Of a DNA stretch of 20,248 bases, positions 3,143 to 12,194 are shown one piece after another. The notes beneath the pieces were generated by a model. The model made no database searches. It was not told the origin of the DNA and was given only the letters and a program-made list of their open reading frames with translations. The number at the start of each line of letters is the position of its first letter. Position 1 is the stretch's first letter. Source of the DNA: a virus; the IMG/VR virus record IMGVR_UViG_3300031825_000078, positions 1 to 20,248 of that record. One strand, written 5' to 3'. The translations under genes and the position numbers were made by a program.

Positions 3143-5857
3143 TTATGCGGTGGGGGTTGTGCTGGGGCGTGCGAAAACCCAGCAGTTGACGGTCTTGCCG
3201 GTGCGGGAATTGACCGGCTTGTGAGCGAGGAATTTCCGGGCCTTGCTGGATTTCAGCAGCCGCTTGAGTTCATTCATCGGGGGGAGCGACAGGCGCAGAT
3301 CGCCGCATTTCTGCTCGAACTGCACAAGGTTGATCGCGAAGACGTCGTTGGTGCGGCTGTGATCAATGGGCCGATCCGTCGTGTCGGATTCCTGTGCCGC
3401 GATCCAATCGAACCGCTCCCAGAACAGTTCGACATGGGGATGATCATGTTCGACCAGGCGCTGCCGCTCGGTCAGCATTTCGCGGATGAAATCATGGGTG
3501 GCATCAGCCGCGGATCTGGGCACGTTGCGCACCACGATCTGCATGGCGTCGAACATGGCGGCCAGCTGGGCATGGTTCTTCGCCAAGCGGTCGTTGCGGA
3601 CGCCGGGCTGCTTGAGCATCGCCTCGTAATGCTGGGCGAACCGCTCCCGATAGCATTGCAGGATTTCCGCCTCTTTGCGGACGATATGGACGATGAACCC
3701 CGACACGTCGTCGCGCTCGAACCGGCTGATTTTTTCCGCTGCGGTGCGGGTGTGCGGTCCCCAGCCCGTCTTGTCGATCGTCAGACCCATGATGCGCTCG
3801 CGCATCGCCGGGGACGCCTCGACCGGGTCATTCTGCACGATGGCGATGGCACCCCGGAAAGGCGGTTCAAAGGTTTCCATGCCGCCGTTGGCGATGGCGC
3901 GGGTACGGACCGCGCGCCCGTTATAGGCGGTTTTCAGTTCGTCCCATTCAAACCGGCGGCTATGGGGAGTGTCCTGCGTCCGGTCGCCCTCGATCAACAC
4001 CACGGGCAGGTTTCCGACCTGCCCCAGCGTGCGGGCGATACCGGCGTTGGTGGCCTTGGTCGGGTCGAAGCCCTCATAATTGCCGACACGGCCCATCAGC
4101 TTCCAGCAGAAGGCGATAGCCGTGGTCTTGCCGGTGCCGGGAGGCCCGGTGACTTCAAGGAAGCCCAGCGATTCCTGCGTGGCGCGGATCTGCTCGGCGA
4201 ACAGCGACAGAACCCAGAAGGACAGGATGACGTAAGCCTTCGCCCCCCAAGCCTCATACATCGGCTGCACCCAATCGAGATTGAGCCGGTCCGCGTCATA
4301 ATTGATTTTCAGCAGCCGGTCCGCAGTGCGCAGCTTCACTGCCTTGCGGGAAAAGACGAAATAGTCGTCGGCGTTGACCTTCTCGACCTTGCCGTTGCTG
4401 ACGCCGATGTCGCCCAGCAGATAGGCTTCATGGTCGATGGAATAGCCGGTGAACTGGATCGCCTCGACCATGCGGATGCTGGCCCATTGGCGCTGCATCA
4501 GCTTGTCCAGATGCCCGGTCGCGCCGGTCCACTGCGCGCCGGGGGCGACCGATGACAGGCGCTTTTTGAACTCGGCACCGGCGGACAGGTTCGCGCCGGA
4601 AAAGGTGGCCTTCACCGCATCGCGGCGCGGCTGTCCCTTGATCCGGGGGAAGTCGATGCGCAGGAAATATGCGCCTTCCTCCAGATAGGCGTCCTTCTGG
4701 AAATACAGGGTGCGGAAGGTGCAATTCGCCAGTTCGGTGATGTCGGCGGCCTGACGGGCGGCCTTTTCCCATTGCTCCTCATAGGGCAGCTTCTGGATCG
4801 ACGGGTCAGTCTCGCGCAGCCCTTCAAGGATGCTCTCGATCCGCTCCAGCGAGAAGGACGCCCACAGCTGTCGCTGGTTGAAGATCAGGGGGAAAGAGGC
4901 GGTCTTGAACCGCTTGTAGATCAGGAACGCCTTTTCGTCGGCGGTGGCGGCGATCGTGACGTCGCCCGCCCACAGATATTCCTCAATGTGCTGGGCCTTG
5001 AGCCGATCGGCTTGGTGCAGATCGTTCCAATCCCGCTTTTCGCCCTCGCCATCGACACGGACCTGCGCCGCACCCGCCATCCAGCCAGCCTTGCGGGCTT
5101 CGGCGACATGCGAGATTGCATATTCGACACCGGCGGCCCCCTGATCATAGGCAAAGATCAGGCGCGGCCCGGCCCCGGCTTCGGGATCGTCGCCGATGGC
5201 TTTGCGGAGATCGGCGAGAAACTGCTTGGGGAAATTGTTGCAGGACATGGCCGACACCGCGACAATGCCATTCTGCCGCAGGGCGATGGCGTCGAAGATG
5301 CCTTCCGCGATCCAGATTTCCCGCGAGCGGGCCAGCGTTTCGACGGTATCGCCAGGATAGGTCCAGACCAGCCCGCGATAGCCGCCACCATAGGAAAAGG
5401 TGGCCTTCTTGTCGCCGAAGCGGTGGGCCTGATCTATCAGCCGCTGCCAATAGCCGCCGCCGGGCATCGGGAATCGCACGGTCGCGGAACCGATGTTCAG
5501 TTCCTGATCGTGATAGCGTTCCTGCGTATAGGCGCCCTTGAGCGGGGCGATGTCGAGGCCGCGCGCGGCGATCAGATAGGCGTCTGCGGCAGCGTTCGGA
5601 TTTTGCGGCGACTGCTTATACCGCTTCGACCAGTCGTCGAAAATTTCAGGGTAGAGCTTCTTGGTTTCGCCTTCCCAACCGCATTTATCTACGCGACCGC
5701 AGCGGAGGATCCATGGGTGCCCGGCTGGCGTCCAAAGGGATTTCTTGCCCTCCTTACATTGGGGGCATTTACCCTCGCGCAGAAAGTCGCCGTTCTCGCG
5801 GAGATTATAGTCTTTGATCAGGCGGGCTGTGACTTCGCGGAGTATGTCTTCACGCAT
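3143..5857 (-). CDS. Phage DNA primase-helicase (zinc ribbon, Toprim, ATPase)
   Basis: This 904-residue protein is the replication core of the early operon. The N-terminus has a zinc ribbon with Cys31, Cys34, Cys53 and Cys59. A Toprim catalytic region follows, with IAEGIFDAIAL (183-193, the conserved Glu) and FAYDQGAAG (235-243, the DxD-like metal site). The C-terminal half is a P-loop ATPase: Walker A GPPGTGKT at 571-578, Walker B VVLIEGD at 619-625, and a sensor-like IVQND at 673-677. It would make RNA primers and unwind DNA at the phage origin. The last about 30 residues (FLAHKPVNSRTGKTVNCWVF) recur at the end of the antirepressor in this window. The ribosome site before ATG 5857 is weak and a GC hairpin precedes it. 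Confidence 0.9.
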   Translation of the reverse strand: MREDILREVTARLIKDYNLRENGDFLREGKCPQCKEGKKSLWTPAGHPWILRCGRVDKCGWEGETKKLYPEIFDDWSKRYKQSPQNPNAAADAYLIAARGLDIAPLKGAYTQERYHDQELNIGSATVRFPMPGGGYWQRLIDQAHRFGDKKATFSYGGGYRGLVWTYPGDTVETLARSREIWIAEGIFDAIALRQNGIVAVSAMSCNNFPKQFLADLRKAIGDDPEAGAGPRLIFAYDQGAAGVEYAISHVAEARKAGWMAGAAQVRVDGEGEKRDWNDLHQADRLKAQHIEEYLWAGDVTIAATADEKAFLIYKRFKTASFPLIFNQRQLWASFSLERIESILEGLRETDPSIQKLPYEEQWEKAARQAADITELANCTFRTLYFQKDAYLEEGAYFLRIDFPRIKGQPRRDAVKATFSGANLSAGAEFKKRLSSVAPGAQWTGATGHLDKLMQRQWASIRMVEAIQFTGYSIDHEAYLLGDIGVSNGKVEKVNADDYFVFSRKAVKLRTADRLLKINYDADRLNLDWVQPMYEAWGAKAYVILSFWVLSLFAEQIRATQESLGFLEVTGPPGTGKTTAIAFCWKLMGRVGNYEGFDPTKATNAGIARTLGQVGNLPVVLIEGDRTQDTPHSRRFEWDELKTAYNGRAVRTRAIANGGMETFEPPFRGAIAIVQNDPVEASPAMRERIMGLTIDKTGWGPHTRTAAEKISRFERDDVSGFIVHIVRKEAEILQCYRERFAQHYEAMLKQPGVRNDRLAKNHAQLAAMFDAMQIVVRNVPRSAADATHDFIREMLTERQRLVEHDHPHVELFWERFDWIAAQESDTTDRPIDHSRTNDVFAINLVQFEQKCGDLRLSLPPMNELKRLLKSSKARKFLAHKPVNSRTGKTVNCWVFARPSTTPTA

Positions 5858-8043: not shown

Positions 8044-8339
8044 GCCGCCACCTGCATCATACGGCCAGCGGCGATGGCGCGACGGGCGGAAATGGTGAGT
8101 TCGACAGGCTGTCCCTTGCGGACGTTGCCGTGGCGATATTGGGCGGTGATGGCGCGGAATATGTCCCGGCGCGTATGGCGCAGACGAGATTCGAGTTCCG
8201 CGACGGTCATGGGGCGACCGGCGTCGAACAGGGCATTGAGCAGCCCGAACTCAACATAGTCGGCATGGGTCAGAGAAGCATAATCGACCTGCGCGAAAGA
8301 CTTGCCGCAATTCTGCGGTTTGATGGTGATGACAGGCAT
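8040..8339 (-). CDS. Small winged-helix-like DNA-binding protein (99 aa)
   Basis: The 99-residue protein has a pattern typical of a winged helix: LLNALFDAGRPMTVAELES, a turn, then TRRDIFRAITAQYRHG as recognition helix and VRKGQPVELTISARRA as wing. The first 30 residues are probably an extension. It is translated directly after the Cro-like gene, with start ATG 8339 overlapping that stop as TGATG, and so is likely a second early transcription regulator. Targets are unknown. The fold call rests on pattern reading only. Confidence 0.6.
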   Translation of the reverse strand: MPVITIKPQNCGKSFAQVDYASLTHADYVEFGLLNALFDAGRPMTVAELESRLRHTRRDIFRAITAQYRHGNVRKGQPVELTISARRAIAAGRMMQVAA

Positions 8340-8668
8340 CAGTGCACATCCTTTCGTTGCGTTTTCGGCTTCCGATGGCAAGCGACGGCGACGGGCGGCG
8401 TCGGTATGACGTTCCCACAATCTTCGCCGGGGTTTGATTGCCCGGTAGCCAAGGAAACGGGGTAAATGTCGGGACGAAGCAAATGCTTTGAAACTCCAGT
8501 TTCAGCTTCGACCTTCAATGCAAACTCGGCGGGCAAGCGCTTCCCAGATTGGAGCCATTTCCATACGGCAGTCTGAGAAACACCGCATATGCGGGCAAGC
8601 GCCGACTGCGATCCCGCCCGCAGAACGGCGGCCTTAAGCGCTTCAAATGGGGTGGCTTCTTCGCTCAT
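8339..8668 (-). CDS. YdaS/Cro-like HTH regulator
   Basis: This 109-residue protein has a helix-turn-helix of the YdaS/Cro type at about 8-65: SALARICGVSQTAVWKWLQS, then LPAEFALKVEAETGV and the end block LLRPDIYP, a frequent signature of Cro-like proteins of lambdoid and P2-like prophages. The remaining 40 residues look unstructured. It is the first gene of the leftward early operon and is divergent from the S24 repressor, the exact place of Cro. It would compete with the repressor at the shared operators and commit the phage to lytic growth. ATG 8668 follows AGGTGA at a six-base distance, and that site lies inside an operator-like repeat. Confidence 0.88.
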   Translation of the reverse strand: MSEEATPFEALKAAVLRAGSQSALARICGVSQTAVWKWLQSGKRLPAEFALKVEAETGVSKHLLRPDIYPVSLATGQSNPGEDCGNVIPTPPVAVACHRKPKTQRKDVH

Positions 8669-8752: not shown

Positions 8753-9415
8753 ATGTTGATCCCAGACCGTCTCGTCTCGCGCATGGAGCAATGCGGGGAG
8801 ACCCAATCCAGCCTTGCGCGCAAGGTCGGGGTCTCCCCGCAAATGATAGGGAAGCTGGCGCGGGGCGACGGAGGTTCCAGCACCAAGCTGCACCTCATTG
8901 CCCAGCATTTACGCACGACGCCCGCCTATCTGACGGGGCAGGTCGAGGATCCCGAAGAAGGCGCGTTCATTCCGCCGACGCCGGAGGAAATCGCCGAGCA
9001 GATGGGGCTGGTGAAAGTCGAGGAAGTCGATCTGGCGATCGGTATGGGTGCGACCTATCTGGACGAAGCGGCCATTGCTACCGTCGAGCGCTGGATTCCT
9101 GCGGATTGGGTGCAGCAATTCACTGACGCCCCCGCCTCTTTTCTGACCATCGCCCGGCCTGTTGGCGACAGCATGTATCCGACGATCAATGATCGCGACA
9201 TCATCCTGATCGACAGGTCGAAGCGATCCATCGACCGGCAAGAAGCCATATGGGTTCTGGTTTATGGCGGGCTGGGCACGATCAAGCGGGTCCGCGCCAT
9301 GCCCGATGGCACCTATAAGTTGATGGGCGACAATCCCCAGGTGCGAGAAGAAACGGCGGCGGACGGCGAAATGTTCGTGATTGGCCGCGTGGCTGGTGTA
9401 ATCAGGCGCACCTAA
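8753..9415 (+). CDS. CI-like prophage repressor (XRE HTH + S24 peptidase domain)
   Basis: The 220-residue protein has an N-terminal helix-turn-helix (SSLARKVGVSPQMIGKLARG, 19-38) that binds operators. A C-terminal S24/LexA-like domain follows, with catalytic Ser140 in VGDSMYPTI and Lys178 in GTIKRVR. In this family the C-terminal domain dimerises the repressor and can cleave the linker after RecA activation. Between the two domains I find no Ala-Gly or Cys-Gly bond of the usual kind, so self-cleavage is uncertain. ATG 8753 has AGGG seven bases upstream. The gene is divergent from the Cro-like gene and is followed 23 bases later by the OB-fold gene, probably on the same transcript. Confidence 0.92.
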   Translation: MLIPDRLVSRMEQCGETQSSLARKVGVSPQMIGKLARGDGGSSTKLHLIAQHLRTTPAYLTGQVEDPEEGAFIPPTPEEIAEQMGLVKVEEVDLAIGMGATYLDEAAIATVERWIPADWVQQFTDAPASFLTIARPVGDSMYPTINDRDIILIDRSKRSIDRQEAIWVLVYGGLGTIKRVRAMPDGTYKLMGDNPQVREETAADGEMFVIGRVAGVIRRT

Positions 9416-9438
9416 CAGTCTGGTTACAGGGGAAATTG

Positions 9439-9897
9439 ATGACCGAAGAGAAGAAGAAATCGAAGTTCGGGCGAGGCTGCCTGATCGTTCTGGGTATATT
9501 TGTCATTCTCGTGGTGATCGGTGCGATTGCCGGTGGTGATGGTGCAAAGGAAGGCAAGAAAGAAGCGGCACCTGCCGCCGAATCAAAGCCTGCTCGTGCG
9601 GTAACAGCCCGTGAAATCGCCAAGGCCTATGATGCCAATGAAGCTGCGGCGCAGAAGGAATATGGCGGGCAGAAGCTGGCAGTCACGGGCACCGTGGCTG
9701 GTGTCGATCTGGGCCTGATGGATGAACCGATCATCAAGCTGGAAGGCATCAATCAGTTTATGCCGGTGCAGGCATCGTTCGACAAAAGCTTTACAGATCG
9801 CTCCGCCCAACTGGCGAAGGGACAGAAAGTCACCGTGACATGCGAAAAGCTGGGTGAAGTTGCAGGCTTTGCCATGCTGGACGATTGCACGATGTAA
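9439..9897 (+). CDS. Membrane-anchored OB-fold (tRNA_anti-like) protein
   Basis: The 152-residue product starts with a charged segment and one membrane span at about 14-32 (CLIVLGIFVILVVIGAIAG). A lysine- and alanine-rich linker follows. The domain from about 57 onward has the layout of the tRNA_anti-like OB fold: EIAKAYDANEAAAQKEYGGQ, then LAVTGTVAGV, and near the end LAKGQKVTVTCEKLG. That family is widespread and its ligand is mostly unknown; it need not bind tRNA. ATG 9439 follows AGGGGAA; an overlapping TTG at 9436 is less likely. Being just behind the repressor, it is probably expressed in the lysogen. That suggests lysogenic conversion, for example changes to the envelope or blocking of superinfecting phage, which is inference. 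Confidence 0.75.
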   Translation: MTEEKKKSKFGRGCLIVLGIFVILVVIGAIAGGDGAKEGKKEAAPAAESKPARAVTAREIAKAYDANEAAAQKEYGGQKLAVTGTVAGVDLGLMDEPIIKLEGINQFMPVQASFDKSFTDRSAQLAKGQKVTVTCEKLGEVAGFAMLDDCTM

Positions 9898-9949: not shown

Positions 9950-10114
9950 ATGCCTGATGAGCCGCCGGTCATTTTCGATGACGATAACCCGGAGTGGACC
10001 GTGGAAGATTTTGCGCGGGCGAAGCGCGGGGACGACATTCCCGCGCCATTGCGTGAAGCCTTCCCCAAGCTGGCGTCCGGCGTGAACCAATCGCGTGGCC
10101 GGTCAGGCAGATAG
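9950..10114 (+). pseudogene. Truncated BrnA-like antitoxin N-terminal fragment
   Basis: This 54-codon frame begins at ATG 9950 and reads PPVIFDDDNPEWTVEDFARA (4-23), the signature of the N-terminal part of BrnA-type antitoxins. In full proteins a ribbon-helix-helix DNA-binding domain follows. Here the frame stops after QSRGRSGR, just where that domain would begin. No BrnT toxin gene is next to it, and no good ribosome site is seen. Its last 12 bases overlap the 3' end of the convergent antirepressor gene. It is best read as a remnant cut off at a module junction. A short functional peptide is possible but less likely. Confidence 0.55.
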
Positions 10115-10972
10115 CAGCGGCACCGCCTCTGCGATGTGGAATATCCAGCAGTTGACCGTCTTGTCCAACAGGCCGCTATTGACGGGCTGTTGTTTGACGA
10201 AGCGAGGCTGCTCATTCAGTTTCAGCGCGTCCTTCATCAAGCGATCAATGGCGACTGCGATACCTTCGCTTTTGAAATGGGCCTCGACTTCCTTCATCGA
10301 CAGGGCGAGCAGATCGCCGCGGCGACTGTGATTGATGGCAATGCCCTTCGCCTTCAATATTTCGATGCCGTTCCAAAAGGTGCGGACAATATCGGGCTGG
10401 GTCGGAGCATCGTGCCCCAGCTGGTCGAGCGCCGGAGTGTCGATGCCCAAAGTGGCGCAGTCCTGTTCCAGCAATTGATGGATCAGGCGGCGATAGGCCG
10501 GGTGCGATTCCCGGATCAATAGGCGCGCATAGCGCTCCACGCCGCGCTTCGCCTCTGACCGCTCCGACAGGCCAAGGCGGGCGAATGACGGATTGGTGGC
10601 ATAGCCCTTGGTCCAATAATCATGGAGAACCTGATAGCCTTCAACCTGCATCCCCTCCACGATCGGGCGGGCGCGTTCGTTGATGGTGTTCAGGTTCAGC
10701 TTGAACAACCAGCCATGCCACATCCGCAAAGGCAGGCAGAGGACTTCGCGCCTGTGCGGTGGTTCCGTTGTCAAATTGACAACGGAACTCGACAGAATTG
10801 GGTCTTTCGTGATGCGCCGATACTCATTCGACCAGTCCAGCCCCAGAGCCTCAACGCAGGGGCGCATAGCGACATAGACTTCACCGTCTACCGTCATGGT
10901 CAGCAGATCGCTTCCGGCCACCGGCACTACTGCGTATCGGACGGCTGCATTCTTCTTCGCTTCGTCGCTCAT
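10103..10972 (-). CDS. ant: P22-type phage antirepressor
   Basis: The 289-residue protein carries an N-terminal P22_AR_N domain at about 12-128: VVPVAGSDLLTMTVDGEVYV, CVEALGLDWSNEYRRI, LCLPLRMWHGWLFKLNLNTI and VEGYQVLHDYW. In P22, Ant binds and inactivates prophage repressors. After a helical middle part the protein ends with RFVKQQPVNSGLLDKTVNCW, a segment shared with the primase of this prophage. ATG 10972 overlaps the stop of the preceding gene as ATGA. It is the last gene of an operon controlled from the promoter opposite the Arc-like gene. It is the likely trigger that releases the S24 repressor. A perfect 13-base palindrome lies inside its coding region at 10762-10788. Confidence 0.88.
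   Translation of the reverse strand: MSDEAKKNAAVRYAVVPVAGSDLLTMTVDGEVYVAMRPCVEALGLDWSNEYRRITKDPILSSSVVNLTTEPPHRREVLCLPLRMWHGWLFKLNLNTINERARPIVEGMQVEGYQVLHDYWTKGYATNPSFARLGLSERSEAKRGVERYARLLIRESHPAYRRLIHQLLEQDCATLGIDTPALDQLGHDAPTQPDIVRTFWNGIEILKAKGIAINHSRRGDLLALSMKEVEAHFKSEGIAVAIDRLMKDALKLNEQPRFVKQQPVNSGLLDKTVNCWIFHIAEAVPLLSA
10762..10788. repeat. Perfect 27-bp palindrome inside the antirepressor gene
   Basis: The arm GTTCCGTTGTCAA (10762-10774) is followed by one base and then its exact reverse complement TTGACAACGGAAC (10776-10788). In the antirepressor frame it encodes SSVVNLTTE. A related, less perfect palindrome lies at 11253-11273 in front of the preceding gene of the operon. It may be an operator, an RNA hairpin that pairs with its partner, or conserved coding sequence. 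Confidence 0.8.
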
Positions 10973-11229
10973 TGCAGGCTTTCCCCCCGTTCGATCAACA
11001 CCCGGCGCGTAGCGGCAGGGTCGCCTGCGGCGCAAGCGCGGGCGAGGATAGTGGCGACACCGACCAGTGCGGAGGTTTCCATCATGGTCATACGGTCGGA
11101 CAGGGTGGAGGCGAGCCGGATCAGTTCGGGCACCATGTCGGTCAGGGTGATTTCCGGCGGCGCGGTCGATGCCAGCTGCACCATCATCAGGCGCACTTCA
11201 TCTTCGGTCAGTTTCCGGGGGTTCATCAT
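10969..11229 (-). CDS. Hypothetical protein of the antirepressor operon (86 aa)
   Basis: The 86-residue protein is all-helical in appearance, rich in methionine and leucine (RKLTEDEVRLMMVQLAS, MVPELIRLASTLSDRM). It has no recognised domain. ATG 11229 is preceded by GAGAGAACGAAC; a second ATG follows at once. The frame continues upstream as VVKFTTAFQSERTN, which resembles a stretch of the antirepressor (SVVNLTTE) and lies in the palindrome at 11253-11273. This may be a relic and is probably not translated. The stop overlaps the antirepressor start, so the two are coupled. In P22 small genes in this position modulate immunity; here the role is unknown. Confidence 0.6.
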   Translation of the reverse strand: MMNPRKLTEDEVRLMMVQLASTAPPEITLTDMVPELIRLASTLSDRMTMMETSALVGVATILARACAAGDPAATRRVLIERGESLQ

Positions 11230-11252
11230 GTTCGTTCTCTCAGATTGGAAAG

Positions 11253-11273
11253 CCGTGGTAAATTTCACCACGG
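11253..11273. repeat. Inverted repeat in the gap before the 86-aa gene
   Basis: CCGTGGT (11253-11259) and ACCACGG (11267-11273) form a 7-base stem around an AT-rich centre. Read on the minus strand, this stretch matches the palindrome at 10762-10788 along GAGTTCCGT and on through the centre, with differences at every third base. No T-run follows, so it is not a terminator. Confidence 0.75.
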
Positions 11274-11276
11274 AAC

Positions 11277-11561
11277 TCAGGCGAAGTGTAACTGCGACTC
11301 ATAGGCTTCATGCGCATTAACGGGGCCACGGCTCTGATCGACGCCATAGAGCGGGCGCATTTTCATGCAGCCATCGTCCTCGCCTAGATCGAGCGGGTCG
11401 CCTGCGAGTTCGTCTTCTTCCATGTCGGGATCGCCGTCCAACTGGTCGAGCAGGTCAATCAACGCCTCGATCTGCTGTTCGACCGCCTTCCGATCGAGCG
11501 ATGACAGCCCAAGAGAGATGGTGCGCGGCTGGAATGCCGTGCTAGGTATGATTGCAGCCAT
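11277..11561 (-). CDS. Acidic hypothetical protein, first gene of the antirepressor operon (94 aa)
   Basis: A 94-residue protein with a helix KAVEQQIEALIDLLDQLDGD followed by a very acidic stretch PDMEEDELAGDPLDLGEDDG. The end is neutral and polar. No domain is recognised; the acidic part could mimic DNA or bind a basic partner, which is speculation. ATG 11561 is chosen because GGAG lies 9 to 10 bases before it. Possible starts further up lie in the leader hairpin region. It is the first gene behind the leftward promoter opposite the Arc-like gene, with the 86-residue protein and the antirepressor behind it. Confidence 0.65.
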   Translation of the reverse strand: MAAIIPSTAFQPRTISLGLSSLDRKAVEQQIEALIDLLDQLDGDPDMEEDELAGDPLDLGEDDGCMKMRPLYGVDQSRGPVNAHEAYESQLHFA

Positions 11562-11562
11562 A

Positions 11563-11620
11563 ATCGTCTCCGTAACGATGGTGGTTAGGAGCGGCGCGAG
11601 GGGTAGTGACCCTTGCGCCG
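11563..11620 (-). promoter_or_regulatory. Structured leader of the antirepressor operon
   Basis: Two hairpins lie between the leftward promoter and the first gene. The outer one pairs CGGCGC (11592-11597) with GCGCCG (11615-11620) and continues inward as GGGT (11601-11604) with ACCC (11609-11612). The second pairs ATCGT (11563-11567) with ACGAT (11575-11579) and holds the GGAG ribosome site in its 7-base loop. This suggests control of translation of the operon, but it has not been folded computationally. Confidence 0.45.
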
Positions 11621-11628
11621 TTCTGCTT

Positions 11629-11676
11629 ACTGTCATTACAGTCACCATTGCGCACTGTCAATACATGGCATATAAA
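11629..11676. promoter_or_regulatory. Divergent promoters with two operator repeats for the Arc-like repressor
   Basis: Plus strand: -35 TTGCGC at 11648-11653, 17-base spacer, -10 TATAAA at 11671-11676, about seven bases before the Arc-like start codon. Minus strand: -35 TTGACA at 11661-11656, 17-base spacer, -10 TAATGA at 11638-11633. Two related 14-base sites overlap both promoters: ACTGTCATTACAGT at 11629-11642, a perfect 5-base dyad, and ACTGTCAATACATG at 11654-11667. They lie 25 bases apart and match at 11 of 14 positions. They are good operator candidates for the ribbon-helix-helix protein. Confidence 0.7.
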
Positions 11677-11682
11677 GCGCAC

Positions 11683-11835
11683 ATGGATGACGCTACAAAA
11701 GACCGCGCGTTTCAGATGCGCGTATCACCGCAATGGCTCGCTAAGATTGATGAATGGCGTCGGTTGCAGCCGGACTTGCCGCCTCGCGCCGAAGCAATCC
11801 GCCGCCTTGTCGAAAAGGGGCTGGAGCGGCCATGA
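11683..11835 (+). CDS. Arc-like ribbon-helix-helix repressor (50 aa), leaderless
   Basis: The 50-residue protein has the ribbon-helix-helix layout of P22 Arc, which is 53 residues. A short strand FQMRVS (10-15) is followed by helix PQWLAKIDEWRRLQ and helix RAEAIRRLVEKGLER. Arc and Mnt act as DNA-bound dimers or tetramers and repress the antirepressor gene of P22. ATG 11683 is about seven bases after the -10 element, so the transcript probably has no leader and no ribosome site. An in-frame ATG at 11668 would lie upstream of the predicted transcript start. It is divergent from the operon that ends in the antirepressor, and its stop overlaps the next start as ATGA. It is the likely repressor of that operon and of itself. 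Confidence 0.8.
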   Translation: MDDATKDRAFQMRVSPQWLAKIDEWRRLQPDLPPRAEAIRRLVEKGLERP

Positions 11836-12047
11836 AGGACATGAGTAGCGTTCGGGCGAATGAGAAAATCAAGCGCGGCTCCACTCTGGTCGGCAATGGC
11901 GGCCTGACATTGCTGGGCGCTGGTCTGGCACGGCTTTTTCTGGCCGCGACGGACCTGACGGCGGCCATATGGATTTTGTTAGGCGTGGCCCTTATATTCG
12001 TGGCCGTGCAGATGAACGATCTGATTGATTCGGAGGACGAGATATGA
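11832..12047 (+). CDS. Small two-span membrane protein (71 aa)
   Basis: The 71-residue protein starts with a charged segment (SSVRANEKIKRG) followed by two hydrophobic stretches at about 20-37 and 41-59 (STLVGNGGLTLLGAGLARLF and AAIWILLGVALIFVAVQMND). It ends in an acidic tail. It is translated right behind the Arc-like gene (ATGA overlap) and overlaps the next small gene in the same way. Similar tiny proteins with a RANEKIK start occur in alphaproteobacterial prophages, to my recollection, without known function. A holin-like or superinfection-exclusion role is possible. Co-expression with a lysogenic regulator favours exclusion, but this is inference. Confidence 0.65.
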   Translation: MKDMSSVRANEKIKRGSTLVGNGGLTLLGAGLARLFLAATDLTAAIWILLGVALIFVAVQMNDLIDSEDEI

Positions 12048-12169
12048 CGCTGGCAGAAATGGCTCCAGCCATTACGGCGGTCGTCGTCACTGGCGGCCTC
12101 TACCTTTATCTGTGGAACGAGCGGCGCAAGGCGCGGAACAGCCACCGGCCTATTCACCCCGCTGAATGA
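12044..12169 (+). CDS. Tiny single-span membrane protein (41 aa)
   Basis: A 41-codon gene from ATG 12044 to TGA 12167-12169 reads MTLAEMAPAITAVVVTGGLY and then LYLWNERRKARNSHRP. It has one hydrophobic segment at about 7-24 followed by a basic tail, which predicts an outside N-terminus and cytoplasmic C-terminus. ATG overlaps the stop of the two-span gene as ATGA, and this coupling is the main evidence that it is real. It ends 15 bases before the convergent tail gene D. Function is unknown; it probably works with the two-span protein in the membrane. Confidence 0.6.
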   Translation: MTLAEMAPAITAVVVTGGLYLYLWNERRKARNSHRPIHPAE

Positions 12170-12194
12170 GCGCATTGCTGACCGTCAGGGCGCT
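12169..12194. terminator. Possible bidirectional hairpin between convergent genes
   Basis: AGCGC (12169-12173) pairs with GCGCT (12190-12194), and CTGAC/GTCAG lies between them. The site is where the rightward membrane genes meet the leftward late tail operon. No T-run is present on either side, so termination would be weak or factor-dependent. Confidence 0.3.

Follow-up and report, generated by a model that had tools for sequence, protein, structure and literature searches.

The window analyzed here, that is, the whole stretch of DNA under study, is the complete 20,248-base IMG/VR virus record IMGVR_UViG_3300031825_000078 and not a fragment of a host genome. Between its S24-type repressor gene and its P2-like tail gene D (end at 12185) sit two facing units: a gene for a 50-amino-acid (aa) regulator of the ribbon-helix-helix (RHH) type with two small genes behind it and, divergent from these, a three-gene operon ending in a protein with a P22_AR_N domain (Ant, encoded by ant). 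The initial annotation had described this arrangement, and all of the genes are where it had placed them. The predicted leader of the ant mRNA, which that annotation overlooked, appears to be a structured element, and the comparison of loci indicates that many unrelated prophages share the promoter-and-leader design and place interchangeable genes behind it, including three unrelated kinds of antirepressor. This shared leader and cassette design is a larger find than the likeness to the immI region of phage P22. The explanation that we favor, to which we give about an even chance, is an accessory prophage cassette that is immI-like in its working, with silencing by the RHH protein and control by the leader RNA, and in which an antirepressor is one frequent cargo.

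The leader begins with a 5'-terminal hairpin (hairpin I), which is followed by CUAACC, mostly by a second hairpin (hairpin II) with the Shine-Dalgarno sequence in its loop, and by the AUG. In the window these parts are as follows.

11589-11623, minus strand: leader hairpin I, with which the ant mRNA is predicted to begin (inverted repeat, match to RNA model R2, covariation)
11583-11588, minus strand: conserved CUAACC, directly 3' of hairpin I
11563-11579, minus strand: leader hairpin II, ATCGT-TACGGAG-ACGAT, with the Shine-Dalgarno sequence in the loop (shuffle P = 0.01 for the window)

Comparison of the regions upstream of the RHH gene revealed, in 14 viral loci including the window, a hairpin of about 32 nucleotides (nt) with CUAAC or CUGAC after it. 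RNA model R2 matches positions 11580-11625 (E = 5e-5), the window being among its training sequences. A model built from the 14 viral loci also finds the element ahead of the RHH gene, on the other strand, in roughly half of the genome loci collected by the RHH protein alone, which amounts to independent confirmation of the predicted element. Covariation in hairpin I across 42 sequences, which were aligned to the model and are thus biased toward the structure, gave 70 compensated cells versus 22.4 ± 3.8 after shuffling, with none of 500 shuffles reaching 70, and slid control versions of the hairpin failed. A hairpin II stem with at least four Watson-Crick pairs and a Shine-Dalgarno-like GG motif in the loop is present in 49 of 75 leaders, and the region beats its shuffles at P ≤ 0.05 in 40 of the 75; this support comes from per-sequence shuffles, and whole-leader alignment with MAFFT misaligns hairpin II. 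The stems themselves are diverse (CGATC, CGTCT, CGTTC, CGCAT, CGAAA, ATCGT, and others). The window leader has a folding z score of -3.8. An Rfam scan of nine sources gave no match at the gathering score, the best weak ones having E values of 0.12 to 0.25.

The outer stem of hairpin I contains few G-U pairs, and helix 1 contains none, for which reason an element acting at the DNA level was considered, but G-U pairs do occur in the inner stem, and these, like the Shine-Dalgarno hairpin, point to RNA. An integron attC-like site was dropped on inspection by eye, the 5' arm lacking a matching core. The loop of hairpin II contains GGA; CsrA as its reader was weakened as a candidate by the finding of CsrA in none of five genomes of one genus, which may not be that of the window's host. 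Instead of hairpin II, the window leader (11559-11626, minus strand) could form a pairing of CUCCUAAC with GUUACGGAG that hides the Shine-Dalgarno sequence. Conservation also covers the beginning of the first cargo gene (AUG..GCUGA..........UAGC, with proteins beginning MxQA; for example, in loci L015, L019, L020, L021, and L028 of our collection), and it looks as if the leader element extends into the coding region.

Upstream of hairpin I, the region between the RHH gene and the ant operon contains two putative promoters and two putative operator copies.

11633-11661, minus strand: putative sigma-70-type ant promoter, read from the sequence as TTGACA (11661-11656), 17 nt, TAATGA (11638-11633)
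11629-11642, no strand assigned: putative operator copy 1, near-palindrome ACTGTCATTACAGT, covering the -10 element of the ant promoter
11654-11667, no strand assigned: putative operator copy 2, ACTGTCAATACATG, covering the -35 element of the ant promoter
11648-11676, plus strand: putative RHH promoter TTGCGC-N17-TATAAA, read from the sequence, with a weak -35 element

Relatives show an ant promoter of equal spacing in the same place, and the best -10 element, as scored by a simple consensus, ends 3 to 8 nt before hairpin I in most regulator-facing leaders, so that the mRNA would begin with hairpin I. The RHH mRNA is putatively nearly leaderless. The operators lie in a 17-nt direct repeat (82% identical, 25-nt spacing) whose 12-nt core, ACTGTCAWTACA, has exactly two exact copies in the window, both in this intergenic region. 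When leaders were classed by eye, an exact two-copy repeat (P ≤ 0.05 against shuffles) was found in the 75 nt upstream of 32 of the 62 that face a regulator versus 0 of the 12 that do not. The Alphaproteobacterial LexA box (GTTC-N7-GTTC, or its reverse) is absent near the ant promoter; the sole copy in the window (4199-4213) is inside the primase gene and is at chance level, and control through it was rejected.

The regulator and the two genes behind it form a tightly overlapping operon.

11683-11835, plus strand: RHH-type regulator, 50 aa, from the ATG at 11683 (family alignment, RHH_1 matches in relatives, AlphaFold model)
11832-12047, plus strand: 71-aa predicted membrane protein (hydrophobic segment), with a 4-nt start/stop overlap with the RHH gene
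12044-12169, plus strand: 41-aa predicted small membrane protein (hydrophobic segment), with a 4-nt overlap with the 71-aa gene

An alternative in-frame ATG at 11665 would give an RHH protein of 56 aa. Protein searches yielded relatives in 26 viral and 40 genome loci. By itself the window protein matches no Pfam model, and membership in the RHH fold, judged as a strand plus two helices together with a profile match, is seen for the family: 7 of 23 aligned relatives match RHH_1/CopG (best E = 6e-5). The AlphaFold model of the window protein (mean pLDDT, 83) has an extended N terminus followed by helices at residues 16 to 27 and 35 to 48. Alignment of the family profile with hhalign detected no kinship with P22 Mnt (probability, 1.4) or Arc (probability, 3.6), and the gene is positioned like mnt, which is divergent, and not like arc, which lies inside the P22 ant operon. 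The window protein thus appears to be an RHH regulator of the CopG sort placed like Mnt, and the label "Arc-like" that it had been given holds for the fold but not for kinship. Across loci, the divergent regulators that face the leader are mainly RHH proteins and sometimes helix-turn-helix (HTH) proteins.

In related prophages, which the initial annotation had proposed searching for co-occurrence, a divergent RHH gene, the leader, and a P22_AR_N protein are found together in eight independent loci (the window, L014, L023, L035, L055, L129, L131, and L136), gathered by searching with Ant and with the RHH protein; the expected pairing is thus conserved. In L129 the unit likewise lies after gene D with an S24 repressor nearby. 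The order of the RHH, 71-aa, and 41-aa genes is also kept in Sphingobium jiangsuense (L069; identities of 35% for the 71-aa protein and 44% for the 41-aa protein), where the operon faces an antirepressor of a different kind, Rha. An RHH unit opposite an antirepressor therefore looks like a selected arrangement, with good support for the view that the unit accompanies antirepression as such and not one Ant family. Neither the RHH protein nor the 94-aa protein of the ant operon had a match in a named phage collection, among whose members the unit was accordingly not observed. A second pairing within one prophage is found at L004:2344-3660, where an Arc-family gene (PF03869) is divergent from a Rha antirepressor gene. 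At L034:3203-3961 (plus strand), a BRO-N antirepressor gene overlaps the RHH gene and so lies on the RHH side rather than the leader side.

The genes downstream of the leader are not conserved and encode antirepressors, acidic relatives of the 94-aa protein, and HNH-like, Tat-like, and unknown proteins, these kinds having been assigned by eye except where a family search was made. The antirepressors carry P22_AR_N, BRO-N (L015, L110, and L126; L177 by eye), or Rha (L004, L026, and L069) domains. In ten leader loci that were found without using Ant, an antirepressor-type gene follows in the orientation of the leader at a distance of no more than 2 kb, the families being confirmed with Pfam for those tested. 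The reading of the unit as a dedicated immunity module is not supported, since in other loci the same combination of RHH gene, promoter, and leader is coupled to HNH-like, acidic, Tat-like, and unknown genes. A recurrent unknown cargo protein with "SPLIVHAWSEKAKRQM" occurs downstream of the leader in L006, L017, L095, and L104 (phrog_4652 in L104). The leader also occurs without a recognized divergent regulator. At E ≤ 1e-3 it was found in 51 of 299 Sphingomonadaceae genomes, 19 of 289 class-level genomes, and 15 of 299 phylum-level genomes, counts that may be low because of strict filters and the few candidates scored per genome; the named loci outside Sphingomonadaceae include one in Bradyrhizobium (L053). 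Copies on viral contigs are viral by way of collection.

The cargo operon of the window and the genes with which its products may interact are listed below.

11277-11561, minus strand: 94-aa acidic protein, first cargo gene (homologues in L014 and L136)
10969-11229, minus strand: 86-aa protein, second cargo gene (open reading frame)
10103-10972, minus strand: 289-aa antirepressor-like protein, with P22_AR_N (residues 16-125) and a phrog_20645 winged-helix-like domain (residues 148-280)
8753-9415, plus strand: S24-type CI-like repressor, on which the antirepressor is presumed to act (domain matches; Ser140 and Lys178)
8339-8668, minus strand: Cro/YdaS-type HTH protein, divergent from the S24 repressor (domain matches)
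3143-5857, minus strand: Toprim/AAA primase-like protein, 904 aa, with a C terminus homologous to that of Ant

The P22_AR_N match of Ant (E = 6.9e-28) is far beyond the cutoff, and residues 10 to 168 align with P22 Ant at 32% identity over 156 aa (probability, 99.5). The C terminus is phrog_20645, and P22_AR_C, which is present in P22 Ant, is absent. This C-domain is instead homologous to the C terminus of the virus's own primase (about 29% over 104 aa, with E = 5e-9 in that single comparison); the common domain is encoded at 10103-10560 in ant and at 3143-3400 in the primase gene, both on the minus strand, and ends in a KTVNCW motif. Modeled structures of the N-domain resemble the N-terminal domain of the granulovirus protein CpGV Orf22 (Z = 9.4), and those of the C-domain resemble replication and relaxase winged helices (SaPIBov1 Rep, Z = 6.3; DUF1528, Z = 6.0; TcpK, Z = 5.5 to 5.8), where Z values below 8 may mean merely a common fold. 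In L110 and L126 this C-domain is joined to BRO-N, which indicates that N-domains are swapped on a common C-domain. When the C-domain profile was searched against the 299 Sphingomonadaceae genomes, these two BRO-N proteins were the strong nonprimase matches, with a leader 0.7 to 1.0 kb upstream of each in the same orientation, although both had been met via their leaders and were among the nine proteins from which the profile was built. No other strong nonprimase copy, with or without a leader, was found in those genomes; a third, weak match is the L101 protein in genome G045, which has no leader.

The S24 repressor contains the Ser140 and Lys178 pair, but no Ala-Gly or Cys-Gly lies 34 to 38 residues before Ser140, the only such pairs being Ala-Gly at 214 and Cys-Gly at 14. 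The protein thus does not qualify as a self-cleaving repressor of the LexA type, although it may be cleaved at another bond. The lack of the usual bond would suit inactivation by an antirepressor; it suggests that classical self-cleavage is not the route by which the repressor is inactivated and that an antirepressor may be required.

We infer RHH binding, leader function, and antirepression in the window to be connected in the following way. In the lysogen, the RHH protein, bound at two operator copies over the -35 and -10 elements, would keep the cargo operon off, while it and its two cotranscribed membrane proteins would be made at a low level from the nearly leaderless message. If the RHH protein were lost, titrated, or not yet made (e.g., upon entry into a naive cell), the cargo promoter would fire and yield an mRNA that opens with hairpin I, followed by CUAACC and by hairpin II presenting the Shine-Dalgarno sequence in its loop. 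The leader, whose structure is backed by covariation, would set the life of the mRNA, its translation, or both, regardless of the flanking promoter and cargo. A cargo of the P22 Ant type would neutralize the S24 repressor, perhaps binding it via P22_AR_N, and the winged-helix C terminus would meanwhile contact nucleic acid.

Several results weigh against this explanation. The minimum-energy fold of the window leader pairs the Shine-Dalgarno sequence with CUCC and does not form hairpin II; the window repeats are imperfect, and an exact-word test on them is not significant (P = 0.42), though the 12-nt core is; the leaders were divided by eye into those with and without a regulator; and RNA-model E values are rough, so that a few weak matches may be chance. 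In most loci the cassette drives genes other than antirepressors, and P22_AR_N relatives exist outside it: those of L101 and L134 have neither an RHH gene nor a leader upstream, the one of L130/L133 has a leader that faces away and no RHH gene, and the single PF10547 (P22_AR_N) match in the 299 Sphingomonadaceae genomes is that of L101. The leader might then be the functional unit, a general device for expressing prophage cargo without any second immunity circuit. Its many cargoes, its presence where no divergent regulator is recognized, and its spread across the genomes searched fit such a device, which we nevertheless hold to be somewhat unlikely: antirepressor cargo from three families in ten loci looks too frequent (a judgment made without a background rate), and the RHH unit of L069 accompanies a different antirepressor. 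We think it unlikely that the Ant-like protein is a replication or DNA-binding regulator whose C-domain competes with or recruits the primase while P22_AR_N binds DNA. The homology to the primase C terminus (phrog_1139 in L014 and L129 too), the replication-type fold, and the BRO-N cargo proteins with the same C-domain would fit this role, but annotation treats P22_AR_N, BRO-N, and Rha proteins alike as phage antirepressors, the Rha cargo of L069 and L026 has an ANT/KilAC domain in place of the Ant C-domain, and the Z values may reflect a common fold.

It is still less probable that the RHH and membrane genes form a toxin-antitoxin or superinfection-exclusion unit with which the ant operon merely shares a promoter region. 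The RHH-membrane-membrane operon is kept as a unit in L069, a strongly hydrophobic frame follows the RHH gene in 13 of 53 genes checked, and at L116:894-1295 (minus strand) the gene behind a leader-facing RHH-type gene encodes a PemK/MazF-like toxin. However, the genes behind the RHH gene vary by locus whereas the RHH gene, promoter, and leader stay, and L014, L023, and L131 have no second gene closely behind it. The least probable alternative is a true relative of P22 immI, in which the RHH protein would be an Arc or Mnt orthologue, Ant would be an orthologue of P22 Ant, and the rest would be decoration. In P22, Ant binds the C2 repressor, and Mnt, Arc, and sar control ant (PMC11016777). The immI of this Salmonella phage (BK000583; mnt-arc-sar-ant) and the window share their order and logic, namely, a small divergent RHH repressor opposite an Ant with a homologous P22_AR_N domain, paired operators over divergent promoters (putative in the window), and an RNA layer on ant (a candidate in the window). 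Unlike immI, the window has an RHH protein whose profile matches neither Mnt nor Arc, an ant operon without arc, and an Ant with a replication-type C-domain in place of P22_AR_C. Its candidate RNA layer is a cis-acting leader, whereas that of P22 is an antisense RNA, sar, for which the Rfam scan identified no equivalent (no search for an antisense promoter was made). The window-type cassette also moves between positions, carries other cargo, and has two membrane genes behind the RHH gene; neither its leader nor its swapping of cargo has a P22 counterpart. The description "P22 immI-like" is therefore apt for the logic and the Ant N-domain but fails for Mnt/Arc kinship, P22_AR_C, and arc in the operon: the cassette likely works like immI and, judged by domain content and regulator kinship, is not a member of it.

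The favored cassette also has likenesses to other systems. In the polylysogen TF-smORF induction modules, the product that a transcription factor turns on is an unrelated small protein (Silpe et al. 2023, PMC10432266). These modules likewise place a divergent transcription factor beside a repressor-inactivating gene and share a common logic with dissimilar sequences, but in the window the RHH protein, a presumptive repressor, faces recognized antirepressor families and a conserved RNA leader. In Gifsy prophages, as in the window, the antirepressor gene lies outside the immunity region; it acts on the phage repressor under LexA control (Lemire et al. 2011, PMC3121763), unlike the window, where no Alphaproteobacterial LexA-type repeat is near the ant promoter. 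According to a review (PMC3997798), 5'-terminal stem-loops stabilize the ompA and papA mRNAs, which resemble the window leader in bearing a stem-loop at the extreme 5' end (predicted for the window). As cited there, those stem-loops are gene specific, whereas the window leader is common to unrelated genes and has CUAACC and usually a hairpin with the Shine-Dalgarno sequence in its loop.

We tentatively propose, at somewhat less than even chance, that in prophages of Alphaproteobacteria, and perhaps in those of other Pseudomonadota, the two-hairpin leader constitutes a new RNA element that acts in cis. It would serve as a standard 5' end for mRNAs, joining interchangeable operators and divergent miniregulators to interchangeable cargo, in which three unrelated antirepressor families recur, and would be read by a host or phage factor acting on all cassettes at once. 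With the cassette of the window, two-layer control of antirepressors would extend beyond P22-like phages with unrelated parts, as a convergent design. Because the leader is absent from Rfam 15 and yet, with strict filters, turns up in about one-sixth of Sphingomonadaceae genomes, its sequence can be used to locate hidden genes, both antirepressors and other accessory genes annotated as hypothetical, and it allows a test of whether many prophage cargo operons are under the joint control of a single RNA-binding activity.

The extra small genes, which the initial annotation had suggested might be new components, fared differently from one another. The 94-aa protein is 68% and 64% identical to the products of the same-place genes in L014 and L136, respectively, and belongs to a recurring cargo family with acidic relatives behind other leaders; the membrane pair recurs once, in L069; and for the 86-aa protein, domain and family searches and the comparison with relatives found no relative. 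Neither the 94-aa nor the 86-aa protein, the products of the two genes upstream of ant, gave an RHH match in the domain and family searches. Behind the S24 repressor gene, the gene at 9436-9897 (plus strand) matches phrog_8545, "superinfection exclusion Sie-like" (E = 4e-27), and is also tRNA_anti-like. It is followed at 9950-10114 (plus strand) by a gene for a 54-aa acidic protein that has no family match and recalls the tails of BrnA-type antitoxins.

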